Part shown: in pieces, positions 18,971 through 60,407 of the stretch
Layout: each line of letters begins with the position of its first letter
Position numbering within the stretch: position 1 is the stretch's first letter
Source of the DNA: Sutcliffiella sp. FSL R7-0096
GTDB lineage: Bacteria; Bacillota; Bacilli; Bacillales; Bacillaceae_I
Reading direction: 5' to 3'
NCBI RefSeq assembly: GCF_038595065.1
Contig: NZ_CP152003.1
Location: 3,700,001-3,764,000 of the forward strand
Length of the DNA: 64,000 bases
Notes under the pieces: model-generated
What the model was told of the DNA's origin: nothing
Database searches by the model: none
The model's input: the letters and a program-made list of their open reading frames with translations, nothing else
Program-made: the position numbers and the translations under genes

Positions 18971-19573
18971 ATGGCTCGTTATACAGGTCCAAGTTGGAAA
19001 CTCTCTCGCCGTCTAGGCATTTCATTAAGCGGTACAGGTAAAGAATTAGAAAAGCGTCCTTACGCACCAGGACAACACGGTCCTAACCAACGTAAAAAGC
19101 TTTCTGAGTACGGCTTGCAATTACAAGAAAAACAAAAATTACGTCACATGTACGGCGTAAATGAGCGTCAATTCCGTAGCATTTTCGATGCTGCTGGTAA
19201 AATGCAAGGTAAGCACGGTGAAAACTTCATGATTCTTTTAGAATCTCGTTTAGACAACCTAGTTTACCGTTTAGGTCTTGCTCGCACTCGTCGTGGAGCT
19301 CGTCAATTAGTTAACCACGGTCATATCACGGTTGATGGATCTCGCGTAGATATCCCATCTTACCGCGTAAAGCCTGGTCAAGTAATCGGCGTTCGCGAAA
19401 AGTCTCGCAACCTAAGCTCTGTTAAAGAATCTGTTGAAGTAAACAACTTCGTACCAGAATTCTTAACTTTCAGTGCTGACGCTTTAGAAGGAACGTTCAC
19501 TCGTTTACCTGAGCGCTCTGAATTAGCTGCTGAAATCAATGAAGCACTAATCGTTGAGTTCTACTCTCGTTAA
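18971..19573 (+). CDS. rpsD: 30S ribosomal protein S4
   Basis: Primary 16S rRNA-binding protein of the small subunit, exactly 200 aa. The S4 RNA-binding domain is visible in [28 protein letters not shown] near residues 92-120. ATG at 18971 follows AAGGAGGAG. Codon use is strongly biased, as expected for a ribosomal gene. The last 20 bases, including the stop, are the prophage attachment core; integration leaves the protein intact, ending EFYSR. The natural terminator is now at 60422, on the other side of the prophage. Confidence 0.98.
19554..19573 (+). repeat. attL core
   Basis: TTGAGTTCTACTCTCGTTAA, the final codons and stop of rpsD, repeated exactly at 60388-60407. The identity ends at both sides (G before and GCG after here; T before and TAG after at attR). 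Confidence 0.95.
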
Positions 19574-19767: not shown

Positions 19768-20007
19768 CTACCTTAAATCAATATGCCGTCTACATTTTGT
19801 ACACACAAATAAATATTCCTCTACCTCCTGGTGCCTCTTTAGCTTCCTGCAGGTCTGGCACGATAGTTCTACGAGACGTCCCTCGGACTCTGAGCCTCCC
19901 GTCATATTGACGTGCTCCTCAACCTCTTGGAAGTCTTGCTGATTATTGAACAAACAAAAGGCAAAGGACGTCGCCAGTACGCCTGTAAGCAGGCTGACTA
20001 ACTCCAT
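19768..20007 (-). CDS. Small membrane-anchored zinc-ribbon protein
   Basis: 79 aa. An N-terminal hydrophobic stretch (residues 3-20) is followed by a polar region and a four-cysteine ribbon, CQTCRKLKRHQEVEEYLFVCTKC, near residues 50-72. Start ATG at 20007 overlaps the end of the upstream ribbon-helix-helix gene by 10 bases, indicating coupled translation. Family and role are unknown. It is the last gene of a small minus-strand operon beside attL. Confidence 0.6.
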   Translation of the reverse strand: MELVSLLTGVLATSFAFCLFNNQQDFQEVEEHVNMTGGSESEGRLVELSCQTCRKLKRHQEVEEYLFVCTKCRRHIDLR

Positions 20008-20282
20008 GTGGACATTTCACTTTTAAGTGCATATTTGACGTCAGCTTCATCATGTTTCTTTAGCGGTAGCACTCTGTACGCCTCGTAGACACCAAACTCA
20101 TTCTGGAGTTTTTCAACCATTGCTTCGTCATCCAGACACCTTTCTAATATTAACCCTGCTAATGTGGTCGGTCTCATCTGACAAGCTGTTGACAACATAT
20201 TCAATTTCTTTAGATAACTATTAGACAATGAAATTCCTACTCTGTTAATCTTCTTATTTCCCAGTCCCTTATCTTCTATCAT
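19998..20282 (-). CDS. Ribbon-helix-helix (CopG-like) DNA-binding protein
   Basis: 94 aa. Residues 12-50 (NRVGISLSNSYLKKLNMLSTACQ then RPTTLAGLILERCL) fit the strand-helix-turn-helix layout of RHH repressors, with the polar beta strand VGISLS. ATG at 20282 follows GGGAGG. It overlaps the downstream membrane zinc-ribbon gene. Three GACGTC palindromes lie in or near this gene. RHH proteins include plasmid copy-number and partition regulators and MetJ; which role applies here is not known. Confidence 0.65.
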   Translation of the reverse strand: MIEDKGLGNKKINRVGISLSNSYLKKLNMLSTACQMRPTTLAGLILERCLDDEAMVEKLQNEFGVYEAYRVLPLKKHDEADVKYALKSEMSTWS

Positions 20283-20352
20283 TCCTATAACCTCCCAAAA
20301 TATCCATTGCCAATTGACATGTGTAATTGTAGCACACTGTAACAGTTGATTT

Positions 20353-20724
20353 CTAAGAGTAGGGCAGGAGGGAGGCCCTGATTGCCCCCTGGTTCCGGAC
20401 CTCTATTCGCCTCCCCTCCCCTTGTGGCTGTAAGTCGGGAGTAGGGACGTCTTTTACTGCATTCTGGCCATATATTTCCGCATTTTGTTCTAGCCAATAC
20501 TTAGCCTCCCTCAAGGACCATTTAGGCTGTGGAAGAGGGACATCTTCCCTCTCCTCCTGGTCATAAAAGTATGGCTTCATCAGCTGGTGAAATTGTGAAG
20601 AGTAAGCAGCCGTGAATAATGCAGCTCTAATTATTTGGTTGCGATCCAGGGACGTCACTTTAAACACATCATCCACATACTTCTGGAAGACATCATGATA
20701 CCTTACTGTTGGACGGTACACCAT
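20353..20724 (-). CDS. Possible second ribbon-helix-helix protein, 123 aa
   Basis: Residues 4-42 (RPTVRYHDVF, QKYVDDVFKVT, SLDRNQIIRAALFTAA) resemble a strand plus two helices of an RHH domain. The remainder is an acidic and proline-rich tail without a recognised domain. ATG at 20724 follows GGAGGAGGTG at a slightly long spacing. It overlaps the 48-aa gene upstream. I infer DNA binding only from the N-terminal pattern. Confidence 0.5.
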   Translation of the reverse strand: MVYRPTVRYHDVFQKYVDDVFKVTSLDRNQIIRAALFTAAYSSQFHQLMKPYFYDQEEREDVPLPQPKWSLREAKYWLEQNAEIYGQNAVKDVPTPDLQPQGEGRRIEVRNQGAIRASLLPYS

Positions 20725-20839
20725 TAGTGGACGTCACCTCCTCCACAAGTGCTTTTAATAATCGCTCTCCTTCTGACGTCAAAAATACGTCTCTACGCGT
20801 CAATAAGACTTCTGCCAACTCTTTAGTCATGAATTTCAC
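20693..20839 (-). CDS. 48-aa protein, first gene of the attL-side operon
   Basis: GTG at 20839 follows AAGGAGG with 7-base spacing; the frame reads KFMTKELAEVLLTRRDVFLTSEGERLLKALVEEV and ends inside the next gene. It is mostly helical by composition, with no cysteine or membrane segment. Family unknown. The overlap of 32 bases with the next gene suggests translational coupling. Confidence 0.5.
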   Translation of the reverse strand: MKFMTKELAEVLLTRRDVFLTSEGERLLKALVEEVTSTNGVPSNSKVS

Positions 20840-21013
20840 AAAAACGCCTCCTTGGGGTCATTTTGGCGCCCTGATGACGCCTTTAATAAAACATATGTAT
20901 TTGAACAGTAAATATGTCTTGTTAACTTAACTTTTTTATTTTGATATTTATTAATGATTAGAGGAATTACTTTTAACTACGTTGAATGAGTTTATAATAC
21001 GGGGGTGGTCTTC

Positions 21014-21271
21014 ATGCCGATCAATGGCTTTGTATGTAATCTTAGAGTGATATTAGCAGAAGAAAAAATGAGAAATCCATCTTTTACACAGAAAAGACTT
21101 GCAGAGAAGATAAATTTGAGCCGTACTGCCTTAAATGCCCTGGTCAATGAGAAGAGTTTACCTAGCTTTGAAGTGGCTTATAACCTAGCAAAAGAGCTAG
21201 ATCGACCAATTGAACGAATTTGGGTGAAGTTCGATGATAGAGTCGAATTCAAAGAGAGTGATAGTGTATGA
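21014..21271 (+). CDS. XRE-family helix-turn-helix regulator
   Basis: 85 aa from ATG 21014 (GGGGG eight bases upstream). A Cro/CI-type helix-turn-helix spans about residues 21-60 (FTQKRLAEKINLSRTALNALVNEKSLPSFEVAYNLAKEL). TATAAT at 20993 gives a promoter with a very short leader. It is an accessory regulator separate from the immunity repressor at the other end of the prophage. It is followed by an overlapping 63-aa gene. Confidence 0.8.
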   Translation: MPINGFVCNLRVILAEEKMRNPSFTQKRLAEKINLSRTALNALVNEKSLPSFEVAYNLAKELDRPIERIWVKFDDRVEFKESDSV

Positions 21272-21459
21272 GAAACAAAATTGAAGTTGGTGATACAATC
21301 AGAAATCCTGAAAATGGCCTTGTTGGTATTCTGAAGAAAGAGGAAGGTAGAGAAAACTACTATGTTGAGGGTCATCATGAGTATGCTGGCAAGTGGCAAA
21401 CTGCCGGTGGAACGTTGAAGGACTATCAGAAATGGGATTTGTACCAGAAAGGAAAATAA
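21268..21459 (+). CDS. 63-aa protein of unknown function
   Basis: Starts in an ATGA overlap with the XRE gene. The sequence starts MRNKIEVGDTIRNPENGLVGILKKEEG and looks like a small beta-rich domain (KOW- or SH3-like in feel). No family assigned. Confidence 0.55.
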   Translation: MRNKIEVGDTIRNPENGLVGILKKEEGRENYYVEGHHEYAGKWQTAGGTLKDYQKWDLYQKGK

Positions 21460-21570
21460 TGCACTATATCAAATTTTTTACCAAAAAAGTTTTATAATTT
21501 ACAAATTTTCCATTTGCCGTTATGTTTTTATGGTAATATCAATATGTAAAATAAAGGGGGATTGGTTACT

Positions 21571-22131
21571 ATGAGTAAAGAAAAAATCAAAAAGCCATTT
21601 TATAAAAAGTGGTGGGTATGGCTAATTGCTTTCGTTATTATCATTGGTGCTGCAACAAGTGGTGGGGATGAAACGACACCGGACGCGAGCTCAACAAGTC
21701 CAGCAAATACTGAAGTGAAAGAGGAAAACACTGAAGTTGATGATACCACAGAAGAAGCTTCTGAAGAACAGGAAAGTGATGAATCAGGAAGTGAAGAGGA
21801 AGCAGAAGAAGCTAAAGAGGAAAGTGTTCCTAGAGAATATAAATCAGCTTTAAAGAAAGCAGAGTCATATGCAGCAACTATGCATATGTCAAAACAAGGC
21901 ATTTATGATCAATTAGTATCAGAATACGGAGAAAACTTCCCAGAAGATGCAGCTACATATGCTATTGATAATATCGAATGGGATTGGAATGAAAATGCAC
22001 TAAAGAAAGCACAATCATATGCCGAAAATATGGATATGTCTAATCAGGGAATTTATGACCAGCTAATATCAGATTATGGGGAGAAATTCACTCCTGAAGA
22101 AGCACAATATGCTATTGATAATTTAGAATAA
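21571..22131 (+). CDS. Ltp-type host-surface protein (superinfection exclusion)
   Basis: 186 aa from ATG 21571 after AAAGGGGG. A transmembrane segment at residues 13-31 (WWVWLIAFVIIIGAATSGG) is followed by a Ser/Glu-rich spacer and two Ltp repeats, ALKKAESYAATMHMSKQGIY and ALKKAQSYAENMDMSNQGIY with their continuations, to the C terminus. Ltp of Streptococcus thermophilus phage TP-J34 blocks DNA injection by related phages and has such repeats. This version lacks a lipobox cysteine and would be anchored by its helix. It has a terminator right after it. Confidence 0.85.
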   Translation: MSKEKIKKPFYKKWWVWLIAFVIIIGAATSGGDETTPDASSTSPANTEVKEENTEVDDTTEEASEEQESDESGSEEEAEEAKEESVPREYKSALKKAESYAATMHMSKQGIYDQLVSEYGENFPEDAATYAIDNIEWDWNENALKKAQSYAENMDMSNQGIYDQLISDYGEKFTPEEAQYAIDNLE

Positions 22132-47439: not shown

Positions 47440-48724
47440 GTAAATTCCGCATTCTTTGTGTTTTTTTGTTGTAGAAAATATCTACTTTTCCAGTTGGGCC
47501 ATTACGTTGTTTGGCGATATCAATTTCTAAGATGCTCTTTTTATCAGAGTCTGCATTATAATATTCATCCCTATAAAGGAATCCAATGACGTCCGCATCC
47601 TGCTCAATGCTTCCACTTTCCCTTAAGTCTGACATGACCGGTCTTTTGTTCGATCGTTGTTCCACTCCACGTGATAACTGAGCAAGAGTGAGGACAGGAC
47701 ATTTAAATTCTTTGGCCATTCCTTTTAATGCAGCACTTATTTCCGATACCTGCAGATGGGCGTTTCCATTGTGGCTTTCTTCCGGTTTAATCAGGGTGAG
47801 ATAGTCAATCATCACCAGAATCTTTTTATCCGGATTCTCCCTTTTCACGTCCCGGATATGAGCACGCATTTCATTCACAGTCTGGCCAGGTTTATCAAAA
47901 ATCTGCATGTTTATTCTCTCTAGCACTCCAATGGCTGCCACCCAATTTTCATGATCTTTATTATCAAAGTAGTGGTAAGGGTTCCTGGCCTTAATCCCTT
48001 CAATTCCTCCAAGGAGGCAGAGCATGCGCTTTATAAGACTCTCTGCGCTCATTTCGAGGGAGAAAATAACAGGGATTGCACCCTTATATCCTGCATTGGC
48101 TGCAATGTTCAGAATAAGGGCTGTTTTCCCCATGGAGGGTCTTGCCCCGATGATGATACTATCTTCATCTTGAAAGCCGTCTGTCATGTCATCGAGATCC
48201 TGGAAGCCACTCGGGATTCCGGAATATCCTTTTTCTTTCTTGATCAATGGCAGCTCATACATTTGGACCAGGTGTTCTTTGAGGTCAAATTTTTCTTTGG
48301 TGCCCGTTTTATCGATGTCGTTCAACTGCTTGATCATCTTTTGAATATCGCTCGAGTCAAATTCCTGTTTATCCACAATCGGTTTCAAGATATTGTGGAT
48401 ATTTTGTTTCTTCCAGGCATCGATGACAGCTGCTTCATAATTCCTGAACGCATGGATAGAAGGGACACTTTCTTTTAAGAGGGAAAGATGGCCCGTTCCA
48501 CCTAATCGAGAAAGGTTGTTTCGTCCAATTAATTCAATAATCGTGATGGCATTTATCGGCTCATCCTTTTCTGCAATCTTCCTCATCGCTGTGAATAACT
48601 CTTTGTTTTGGTAGTGCTGGAAGTGTTCAGGCTTCGTTACTAATTCATTCATTATGCTGTTATCAATCAGGATACAGCCAAGTAAGGCGCATTCTGCTTC
48701 ATAGTTATTAATCACGCGATCCAC
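47414..48724 (-). CDS. dnaB: Replicative DNA helicase DnaB
   Basis: 436 aa, GTG at 48724. The N-terminal domain (NNYEAECALLGCILIDNSIM) is followed by the RecA-like domain with Walker A GARPSMGKTALILNIA near residue 197, the MIDYLTLI Walker B near 305 and the R-finger region ESGSIEQDADVIGFLYRDEYY near 370. Equivalent to SPP1 G40P; loaded at the origin by the G39P-type protein encoded just before. Confidence 0.95.
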   Translation of the reverse strand: MDRVINNYEAECALLGCILIDNSIMNELVTKPEHFQHYQNKELFTAMRKIAEKDEPINAITIIELIGRNNLSRLGGTGHLSLLKESVPSIHAFRNYEAAVIDAWKKQNIHNILKPIVDKQEFDSSDIQKMIKQLNDIDKTGTKEKFDLKEHLVQMYELPLIKKEKGYSGIPSGFQDLDDMTDGFQDEDSIIIGARPSMGKTALILNIAANAGYKGAIPVIFSLEMSAESLIKRMLCLLGGIEGIKARNPYHYFDNKDHENWVAAIGVLERINMQIFDKPGQTVNEMRAHIRDVKRENPDKKILVMIDYLTLIKPEESHNGNAHLQVSEISAALKGMAKEFKCPVLTLAQLSRGVEQRSNKRPVMSDLRESGSIEQDADVIGFLYRDEYYNADSDKKSILEIDIAKQRNGPTGKVDIFYNKKTQRMRNLHDRHANSN

Positions 48725-59168: not shown

Positions 59169-60314
59169 ATGAAACATATTAAATCTAAAAAGGACCCAGA
59201 ATTATTTCATTACACAAATTCTAAGGGTGAAAAACTTTGGTGCTTTAGGCATCGATATTATGACAAACTAGGTAAGCGCAAAGAGAAGTCTAAACAAGGA
59301 TTTAAGTCTGAGAATGAAGCTTACAGGGCCTTACTATCTGTGAAAACAGGTATCCTCAATGGAGAGGTCAAGAGGGTTGAGAATAGCAACCTTACTGTAG
59401 GTGAATGGCTCGATTTGTGGTACGAAACACATAAAAACGGGTGGAAAATAACCTCTCAAGAACAAAGAGCGAATGCCATTAAATATCAAATGAAACCACT
59501 ACTTGGTAAATACAAATTAGCAGAACTAGATAAAACTACTTACAAACGTGTTTATATCAATGTTCTACTTAAAAAGTACAAACCTAGTACTGTGCAATTA
59601 TTCCACCGATTATTCAAAGTTGCTATTAATGCAGCTGTGGATGATGAGATTATACCCAGGAACCGTTTTAATAAGATAACTATTGAAAACGAAGAAGTTG
59701 CTGATAATTTTCTAACTGCAAATGAGCTTAAGCAATTACTTATTGCAAGTAAGCAACTAGATAATATCACTAATTATTCTCTTATTTTTCTGCTGGCATA
59801 TACAGGTTTAAGAAAAGGGGAAGCGCAGGGGCTAAAGTGGGAAGATATAGATTTCGAAGGAAAAACAATAACAGTTAAACGCACTCGTGATAATAAAGGA
59901 GTGCGTTCACCTAAAACAAAAAGAAGTTACCGCACCATTTTAATAGATGAGGAATTAGTTGCCCAATTAAAACTATATCGTAAATGGTGTAAAGAAACAA
60001 AACTCTCTTTTGGTTTAAGGTCTACAAAAGATGACTATGTCTTTGTATCATATCAAAATGGCACACCAGTAACGGATAATACCATCAAGTATTCTATGGA
60101 TCGTATCCAAAAGAAAACGAATCTAAAAAGAATCACACCACACGGATTACGTCATACTCATGCAACTATCTTAATAAGTAAACGAATACCAATTAAGGTT
60201 ATTGCGGATCGTCTGGGTAATACTCCACAGATGATTTTAGATATTTACGGTCATTCATTCAAAGACTTGGAAGAAGAGTCTGTCCAAGCTTTTGAACAGG
60301 CTATGAGTCTCTAA
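59169..60314 (+). CDS. int: Tyrosine-recombinase integrase
   Basis: 381 aa. The N-terminal arm-binding domain (1-60), a SAM-like core-binding domain (about 75-165) and catalytic domain. Catalytic residues: R215 in TGLRKGE, H325 and R328 in HGLRH, nucleophile Y360 in LDIYGHS. The usual LGH is LGN here. ATG after AAAGGGG. Adjacent to attR as expected. Confidence 0.96.
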   Translation: MKHIKSKKDPELFHYTNSKGEKLWCFRHRYYDKLGKRKEKSKQGFKSENEAYRALLSVKTGILNGEVKRVENSNLTVGEWLDLWYETHKNGWKITSQEQRANAIKYQMKPLLGKYKLAELDKTTYKRVYINVLLKKYKPSTVQLFHRLFKVAINAAVDDEIIPRNRFNKITIENEEVADNFLTANELKQLLIASKQLDNITNYSLIFLLAYTGLRKGEAQGLKWEDIDFEGKTITVKRTRDNKGVRSPKTKRSYRTILIDEELVAQLKLYRKWCKETKLSFGLRSTKDDYVFVSYQNGTPVTDNTIKYSMDRIQKKTNLKRITPHGLRHTHATILISKRIPIKVIADRLGNTPQMILDIYGHSFKDLEEESVQAFEQAMSL

Positions 60315-60387: not shown

Positions 60388-60407
60388 TTGAGTTCTACTC
60401 TCGTTAA
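60388..60407 (+). repeat. attR core
   Basis: Exact second copy of TTGAGTTCTACTCTCGTTAA, followed by host sequence that includes the original rpsD terminator. Confidence 0.95.

Follow-up and report, generated by a model that had tools for sequence, protein, structure and literature searches.

A probable GACGTC-reading ribbon-helix-helix protein of Bacillales prophages and plasmids and the site array in its operon

Seven exact copies of the palindrome GACGTC lie within 906 bp of a small operon in the window (the whole 64,000-nt stretch of DNA analysed here), which raises the question of what reads these sites and to what effect. The operon, its sites, and the neighbouring features are as follows.

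20693..20839, minus strand: P48, first gene of the operon (48 aa, ORF), overlapping the start of RHH1
20353..20724, minus strand: RHH1, 123 aa, probable GACGTC-binding ribbon-helix-helix (RHH) protein with a YRPTVRY segment and a LDRNQIIRAALF helix, from family alignment and enrichment
19998..20282, minus strand: RHH2, 94 aa (ORF), second protein, RHH-like in our reading of its sequence
19768..20007, minus strand: ZNR, last gene of the operon, 79 aa, with an N-terminal hydrophobic segment and a four-Cys zinc-ribbon-like motif
20775..20780: GACGTC inside P48, at −62 from the RHH1 Tyr3 codon
20730..20735: GACGTC between the Shine-Dalgarno sequence and the ATG of RHH1, at the same place in L018, L019, L020, and L022
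20651..20656: GACGTC inside RHH1
20446..20451: GACGTC inside RHH1, in frame (Asp-Val)
20037..20042: GACGTC inside RHH2
19967..19972: GACGTC inside ZNR
19875..19880: GACGTC inside ZNR
20865..20915, minus strand: promoter-like element ATA-N15-CATATGTT with two imperfect sites, a pattern counted across 99 loci
21005..21271, plus strand: divergent Cro/CI-type HTH regulator (Pfam HTH_3, E=2.3e-9)
21268..21459, plus strand: 63-aa conserved partner of the divergent HTH gene, with tblastn matches adjoining the HTH gene in L018, L019, L020, and L022

The initial annotation, made from the sequence alone, had given these seven positions, two further copies at 47588 and 63610, and an occurrence in three reading frames. 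Every position is exact, the two further copies are the only others in the window, and the seven sites are spread over P48, RHH1, RHH2, and ZNR with all three frame offsets represented within the genes. The genome-wide count for which it had called is 320 in 4,908,118 bp, i.e., one per 15.3 kb. The number expected per 906 bp is 0.06, and the Poisson probability of seven or more is 5e-13, or ~3e-9 once multiplied by the number of 906-bp windows in the genome; with 320 copies in 4.9 Mb, the cluster is thus far above the average and far from chance. When the whole window is shuffled, 5.1 copies occur on average, and 8/100 shuffles reach nine or more. The total in the window is ordinary, but the clustering is not. 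Chance or base composition as the source of the cluster is ruled out by the genome count, the Poisson estimate, and the comparison of palindromes in 67 loci given below.

A 41-kb prophage lies at rpsD and has the operon as its end module; the following repeats mark its ends.

19554..19573: attL-like 20-bp repeat, the last 20 bp of rpsD and an exact direct repeat of 60388-60407
60388..60407: attR-like 20-bp repeat, adjoining the integrase gene (59169-60314)

The integrase matches phrog_1 (E=4.5e-78). Tail, head, portal, terminase, helicase, and integrase genes come after the module, and a tyrosyl-tRNA synthetase gene lies beyond the prophage end. Seven of the eight GACGTC copies of the prophage sit in the module. 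The same end region encodes, at 21562-22131, a Host cell surface-exposed lipoprotein (Pfam PF07553, E=3e-51); in other phages, lipoproteins of this kind have been linked to superinfection exclusion. PADLOC models searched with nine proteins (E up to 1) gave nothing specific to anti-phage defence; the matches are of HTH type for the HTH protein, with one weak match (E 0.034) for ZNR.

The same genome has a second RHH1 locus, the paralogue L002, with nine GACGTC in 0.84 kb and 76% DNA identity to the window locus. In our reading of the alignment, five aligned GACGTC positions are common to both loci, and the others differ. The second locus is flanked by phage lysis and virion genes. It (L022 6559-7536; G000:C1 ~4.36 Mb) stops a few bases before a helicase ORF, which we take to be a shortened comFA lacking its start, and the prophage there may interrupt this competence gene.

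In the RHH1 family, YRPTVRY and LDRNQIIRAALF are nearly invariant. Searches with 20 members against Pfam, PHROG, and NCBIfam gave scattered weak matches (best E 0.0034) and no curated one, and a profile search of PDB sequences with the family gave no significant match. An RHH protein has a short beta-strand ahead of two helices, and its dimer forms a two-stranded sheet. The AF2 monomer of RHH1 (pLDDT 68, a weak model) has helices at 11-23, 28-39, and 43-52, and its strand is not formed; the first two helices come after the YRPTVRY segment and are of RHH type in the model. Foldseek with this model returned a single match, Reg576 (6gyg), which is non-significant (E=6.3). Relatives of RHH1 are found in 5/16 genomes of the genus, 6/18 of the family, 39/299 of the order (Bacillales), 4/299 of the class, all four belonging to Bacillales, and 1/398 of the phylum, which is the window's own genome. 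The carriers are prophages, plasmids, and chromosomes of Bacillales, and the loci span many genera: the genome collection supplies 43 loci, two overlapping sets of viral contigs supply 8 and 20, and 56 of 72,556 plasmid records have RHH1. The family is thus without annotation in the libraries searched, yet roughly one in eight of the order genomes sampled has it. One record with the RHH1 module (L055) is titled Chryseobacterium sp. ISL-80; a genome with the same core (G609, L149) is placed in Bacillales, and the title looks wrong.

The genes downstream of RHH1 vary, being either RHH2 and ZNR or two others, R137 and X194. RHH2 relatives occur in 15/299 genomes of the order. R137 and X194 match the function-unknown PHROGs phrog_5779 and phrog_5875, and R137 also appears RHH-like when its sequence is read by eye. 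The X194 model (pLDDT 81) consists of two beta-helix-helix units, and its weak fold matches (E 0.8 and above) include VirC2 and relaxosome chains, the latter presumably TraY. This tandem-RHH-like protein is found in 27/299 genomes of the order, and 27 of the 30 fetched X194 loci (L186-L215) have no RHH1 nearby. A tblastn search of RHH1, R137 (two proteins), and X194 (one) against 50,697 phage records gave no match. With crude gene calling, a cluster homologous to P48 is present in 24/67 loci and one homologous to ZNR in four other loci; ZNR gave nothing above the cut-off in Pfam. A gene of the HTH cluster lies near RHH1 in 48/67 loci, and 6% of the cluster members are co-oriented with RHH1.

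The hexamer accompanies RHH1 beyond the window. The near zone was defined as −300 to +1300 from the YRP codon, giving 104,181 bp near and 489,818 bp further out in 67 loci; loci with identical cores were counted once (92 anchors reduced to 77) in this set and in a further set, from which duplicates were removed. GACGTC occurs 339 times near RHH1 and 37 times further out, a 42-fold enrichment, and the next most enriched palindrome reaches 2.2-fold. At least two copies lie near RHH1 in 62/67 loci, with none in four; in the further set the numbers are 27/32 and four. In all 99 loci, which include one locus twice (L076 = L170) and the broken copies L081, L169, L171, L172, and L174, at least two copies are found in 89 and none in eight, and after merging of RHH1 copies more than 90% alike, 75/84 groups have at least two. 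Homologous operons lacking the hexamers, which had been named beforehand as the observation that would speak against the proposal, are thus few. Of the seven plasmids with fetched loci, six were examined whole, and each has one RHH1 locus; 7/8, 5/12, 4/5, 6/13, 4/8, and 6/11 of their GACGTC copies (32/57 in total) lie inside the RHH1 cluster, and the rest are scattered singles. Viral record G020 (locus L089), which carries RHH1, has 29 GACGTC across 66.6 kb, two of them close to RHH1; this scatter, unlike the clustering elsewhere, is possibly a genome-wide regulon.

The companion genes serve as controls. The 27 X194 loci without RHH1 nearby (30 loci fetched of 37 hits) contain four GACGTC altogether and the 11 of 18 RHH2 loci without RHH1 nearby contain two, counted over ~1.5 kb on each side so that a more distant RHH1 may still be present. 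These background counts indicate that the array follows RHH1. Both RHH-like proteins of the operon had been put forward as readers: RHH1 tracks the sites, whereas RHH2 does not. The reader of GACGTC is very probably an RHH-like protein of the window operon.

Imperfect hexamers should also be noted. GGCGTC and TACGTC are approximately twofold enriched near RHH1. The start-site hexamers of the window's own group deviate from GACGTC; in the window they are GGCGTC (20876-20881) and GGCGCC (20865-20870), 11 bp apart, and both are conserved at the start site of the window's paralogue. The enrichment and this conservation suggest that the imperfect start-site hexamers (20865-20881 in the window, similar places in relatives) may be graded operators.

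The sites inside genes are conserved at the codon level. Asp-Val at +159 is spelled GACGTC in 45/45 loci and at +246 in 24/25, together 69/70; the 99-locus set gives 56/57 and 33/35. The codon use of the same genes predicts 4% GACGTC for Asp-Val, and over all positions 137/179 Asp-Val pairs are spelled in this way. DNA-level selection on codons is the probable cause that holds the in-gene hexamers. To either side of the hexamer, C is nearly excluded from position −1 (2% and 4%, counted over 345 distinct sites after removal of ten positions, namely those under codon lock and the positions next to them), an exclusion of the kind that a symmetric dimer site would show. The spacing of consecutive GACGTC peaks at 11 bp (25 pairs); the 10-13 bp range accounts for 42 pairs, from 33 loci, and a smaller group is at 20-22 bp. 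In the merged groups, 11 bp has 19 pairs and the 10-13 bp range 33. The shortest spacing in the 99 loci is 10 bp, and none is closer.

Per 100-bp bin, GACGTC increases from 6 at −300 to 61 at −200 (67 loci). Between −1500 and −300 there are 11 copies in ten loci; five loci have one near −419 to −449, within the divergent HTH gene or close to it, and −502 is listed separately. An ATA-N15..18-NATA element followed after 10-13 nt by the first site is found in 63/99 loci, whereas shuffles of the upstream sequence average 5.5 and do not exceed 12. The pattern was spotted by eye in the same loci and counted afterwards; real and shuffled sequences alike were allowed eight site words, four offsets, and four spacings. 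On the downstream side, the region from +450 to +1300 has 2.70 sites/kb in the 17 loci with a co-directional RHH2/R137 gene and 0.28 sites/kb in the 47 loci without, three of the 67 loci being left out because they end too early and transcription units being judged by gene order. The array therefore tends to match the transcription unit in length, regardless of the products of the downstream genes.

The promoter-like element could be read as sigma-E-like (ATA-N16/17-CATAnnnT) or as sigma-A (TGGACA-N17-TTTATT). Many loci contain GGACAAGC within it, which presumably fits the SpoIIID consensus. ATA..GGACAAG[CT] occurs on the sense strand in 41/99 loci and is absent from 0.99 Mb of scanned strands outside, and GGACAAG is on the sense strand in 44/99 loci and once on the other strand. 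However, GGACAAG goes with one HTH subtype (41/60 loci with it vs 3/39 without; 51/60 vs 6/39 for a looser form), so that an assignment as a SpoIIID box cannot be made, and GGACAAGC may be an operator of that HTH protein. SpoIIID is present in 40/41 RHH1 genomes, the exception being 80% complete, and in 285/298 genomes of the order; its co-occurrence with RHH1 is therefore uninformative. In Clostridium difficile, the sigma-E −35 motif is given as ATA and the spoIIID promoter as ATA-N16-CATATATA (PMC3789822), and SP-beta is described as a prophage able to use a mother-cell promoter (PMC4191935). As a tentative possibility, RHH1 and its single and tandem RHH-like companions might be a mobile-element chromatin that coats its own unit via the codon-kept hexamer array, the unit being turned on from a sigma-E-like promoter of the sporulating mother cell, many loci having the SpoIIID-like GGACAAGC box, so that prophages and plasmids would act in the sporulating mother cell.

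The strand residues of RHH1 and the DNA word were compared in the loci. With Thr at the fourth position of the strand segment, 85/89 loci have at least two GACGTC; with Ser, Ala, or Ile there, 2/6 do and 4/6 have none, and four further loci are unreadable. L066 (YRPSVRY) has the full RHH1-RHH2-ZNR operon and no GACGTC. Its GGTGCC copies at −69, −49, and +159 and GGCACC at +847 are all copies of this word in its 7.6 kb. GGCGTC lies between the −69 and −49 copies to give three sites at 10-bp steps, and at +159 Gly-Ala replaces Asp-Val, in step with the DNA word. L181 (WRPALRC) has the GGTGCC/GGCACC word at −52 and −40, and GACGTC is absent. L180, also WRPALRC, keeps three GACGTC, which counts against a strict residue code. 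L079, L098, and L168 have an intact YRPTVRY and no GACGTC, L098 having GACGTA, and a motif search in L079, L168, L176, and L178 found no clear word. Broken RHH1 copies keep sites, four each in L169 and L172 and two in L174. Covariation of the strand residue and the hexamer, which the initial annotation had suggested looking for, is suggested by the Thr counts (85/89 vs 2/6) and by the L066 word but is imperfect, as L180, L079, L098, and L168 deviate from it. The natural variants in which residue and word apparently change together are material for an RHH recognition code. In L066, the interval separating RHH1 from the divergent HTH gene also has repeated CAAGTCGACTTTGAAA-like words, ~200-100 bp upstream of RHH1, which are possibly operators of the divergent HTH protein.

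The reading that we favour, and consider likely with some reserve, is that RHH1 represses its own operon by occupying it. RHH1 would be an RHH repressor forming an accessory module of prophages and plasmids, and each homodimer would read one GACGTC palindrome. Its own operon would be shut by binding where transcription starts, at the first site or pair of sites, and neighbouring dimers on sites ~11 bp, or one helical turn, apart would cooperate. Through the further sites in the co-transcribed coding sequences, RHH1 would occupy the whole unit and block both initiation and elongation, so that a small rise in RHH1 is proposed to silence the module, which also encodes other RHH-like proteins. The account is built on the family, the array, its promoter-like position, the codon lock, and the array extent as read from sequence; binding, cooperation, repression, and the elongation block are what we infer. 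Autoregulation by an RHH-like protein, as proposed initially, fits the positions of the sites, and silencing of the module's own operon is possible. Several points count against this self-silencing account: the intact members L079, L098, and L168 without GACGTC, the three copies in L180, the sites kept by broken RHH1 copies, the scattered sites of G020 and of the plasmids, the five loci with a site near −419 to −449, the weak RHH1 model with its non-significant Foldseek match, and the imperfect start-site hexamers of the window's group. In addition, a plain autorepressor would have no need for so many in-gene sites.

If RHH1 were such a plain autorepressor, the start-site operators alone would matter and the in-gene sites would be weak leftovers or buffering decoys. 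The start-site position and the pair spacing suit this explanation, and RHH autorepressors of Bacillus mobile elements are on record, e.g., Reg of p576 (PMC8708921). It is nevertheless unlikely, given the Asp-Val codon pairs locked as GAC-GTC in 69/70 cases and the recurrence of the sites across different downstream genes.

Centromere-like maintenance is unlikely; here RHH1 on the array would form a complex that partitions or tethers the element, whether or not a motor protein takes part. RHH centromere proteins on repeat arrays are described (PMC9499535), each of the six whole plasmids has a single RHH1 locus, and within ~5 kb of RHH1 there are a ParA-family gene on pBM69 and a ParM-family gene on pOM18. 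However, no motor gene was recognised in the gene clusters common to at least four loci (one example read per cluster), and the partition-like system envisaged in the initial annotation is thus unsupported by the neighbouring genes. Moreover, the module is found in integrated prophages, where partition is superfluous, the first sites are at a promoter-like element, and the sites are irregular and follow co-directional genes, unlike contiguous heptads. The lack of a recurring motor gene, the integrated prophages, and the dispersed sites together make partition less likely than self-silencing by RHH1.

A different reader of GACGTC, namely the divergent HTH protein, RHH2, or X194, is very improbable: the genes of all three are neighbours in many loci, but the fetched X194 and RHH2 loci without nearby RHH1 have no clusters, and of the 39 loci in which the common HTH type finds no match, 35 have at least two GACGTC. 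On these two groups of loci, RHH2, X194, and the HTH protein are rejected as the hexamer reader. That the hexamer acts in mRNA, or is a restriction-modification or compositional artefact, is hardly credible, for although the array lies mainly within transcribed sequence and GACGTC is also a restriction site, double-stranded DNA as the target agrees with the symmetry of the excluded flanks and with the helical spacing, the other six-letter palindromes show no comparable enrichment, and many genera have the array.

Self-silencing by RHH1 can be compared with known systems. MetJ is of the RHH class, and its MET boxes are abutting 8-bp boxes. The MET box is AGACGTCT, which contains GACGTC (PMC4239095). 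The likeness to MetJ pointed out initially concerns these core letters; no sign of a family relation was found, and 20 RHH1 members searched against Pfam at E 0.1 gave two unrelated weak matches, MetJ being absent. RHH1 sites are at least 10 bp apart with a peak at 11 bp, in contrast to the abutting MetJ boxes, and no methionine context was seen around RHH1. Reg of the conjugative plasmid p576 from Bacillus pumilus is described as an RHH autorepressor of establishment genes (PMC8708921). Like RHH1 as proposed here, it is an RHH repressor of a Bacillus mobile element that acts on its own promoter via paired sites. The two differ in that the Reg operator TTATCCCnnTTATCCC lies beside promoters and several operons are regulated, according to the same source (PMC8708921), whereas the enriched word near RHH1 is GACGTC. 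Establishment repressors of the Reg type are characterised by a TTATCCC dual motif next to the −35 box and by keeping anti-restriction genes repressed until transfer is over.

ParB(omega)/parS of pSM19035 needs at least four contiguous heptads and ParA, as described in PMC9499535. RHH1 would resemble it as an RHH protein on a repeat array of a mobile element; the RHH1 loci differ in having dispersed hexamers at least 10 bp apart (99 loci) and no recurring ParA. TraY and VirC2 are tandem-RHH plasmid proteins that the X194 model weakly matches in fold (E 0.8 and above). The stoperators of cluster A mycobacteriophages are repressor sites where elongation is terminated (PMC9283540). Stoperators are spread across the phage genome, in contrast to the window prophage with 7/8 sites inside the module; G020 with its 29 scattered GACGTC may come nearer to the way stoperators are arranged.

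RHH autorepressors of mobile elements are already known. Within the open-licence PubMed Central literature, neither an array that spans a transcription unit and is held by codon choice nor a relevant description of GACGTC with ribbon-helix-helix proteins was found. Compared with the known systems, RHH1 and GACGTC are proposed as a regulator-site pair for a family common to prophages and plasmids, and they offer a clear example of coding sequences with probable operator sites that codon-level selection preserves. Should the array silence elongation, or the promoter be specific to sporulation, this would be a new mode of mobile-element self-control within the host life cycle.
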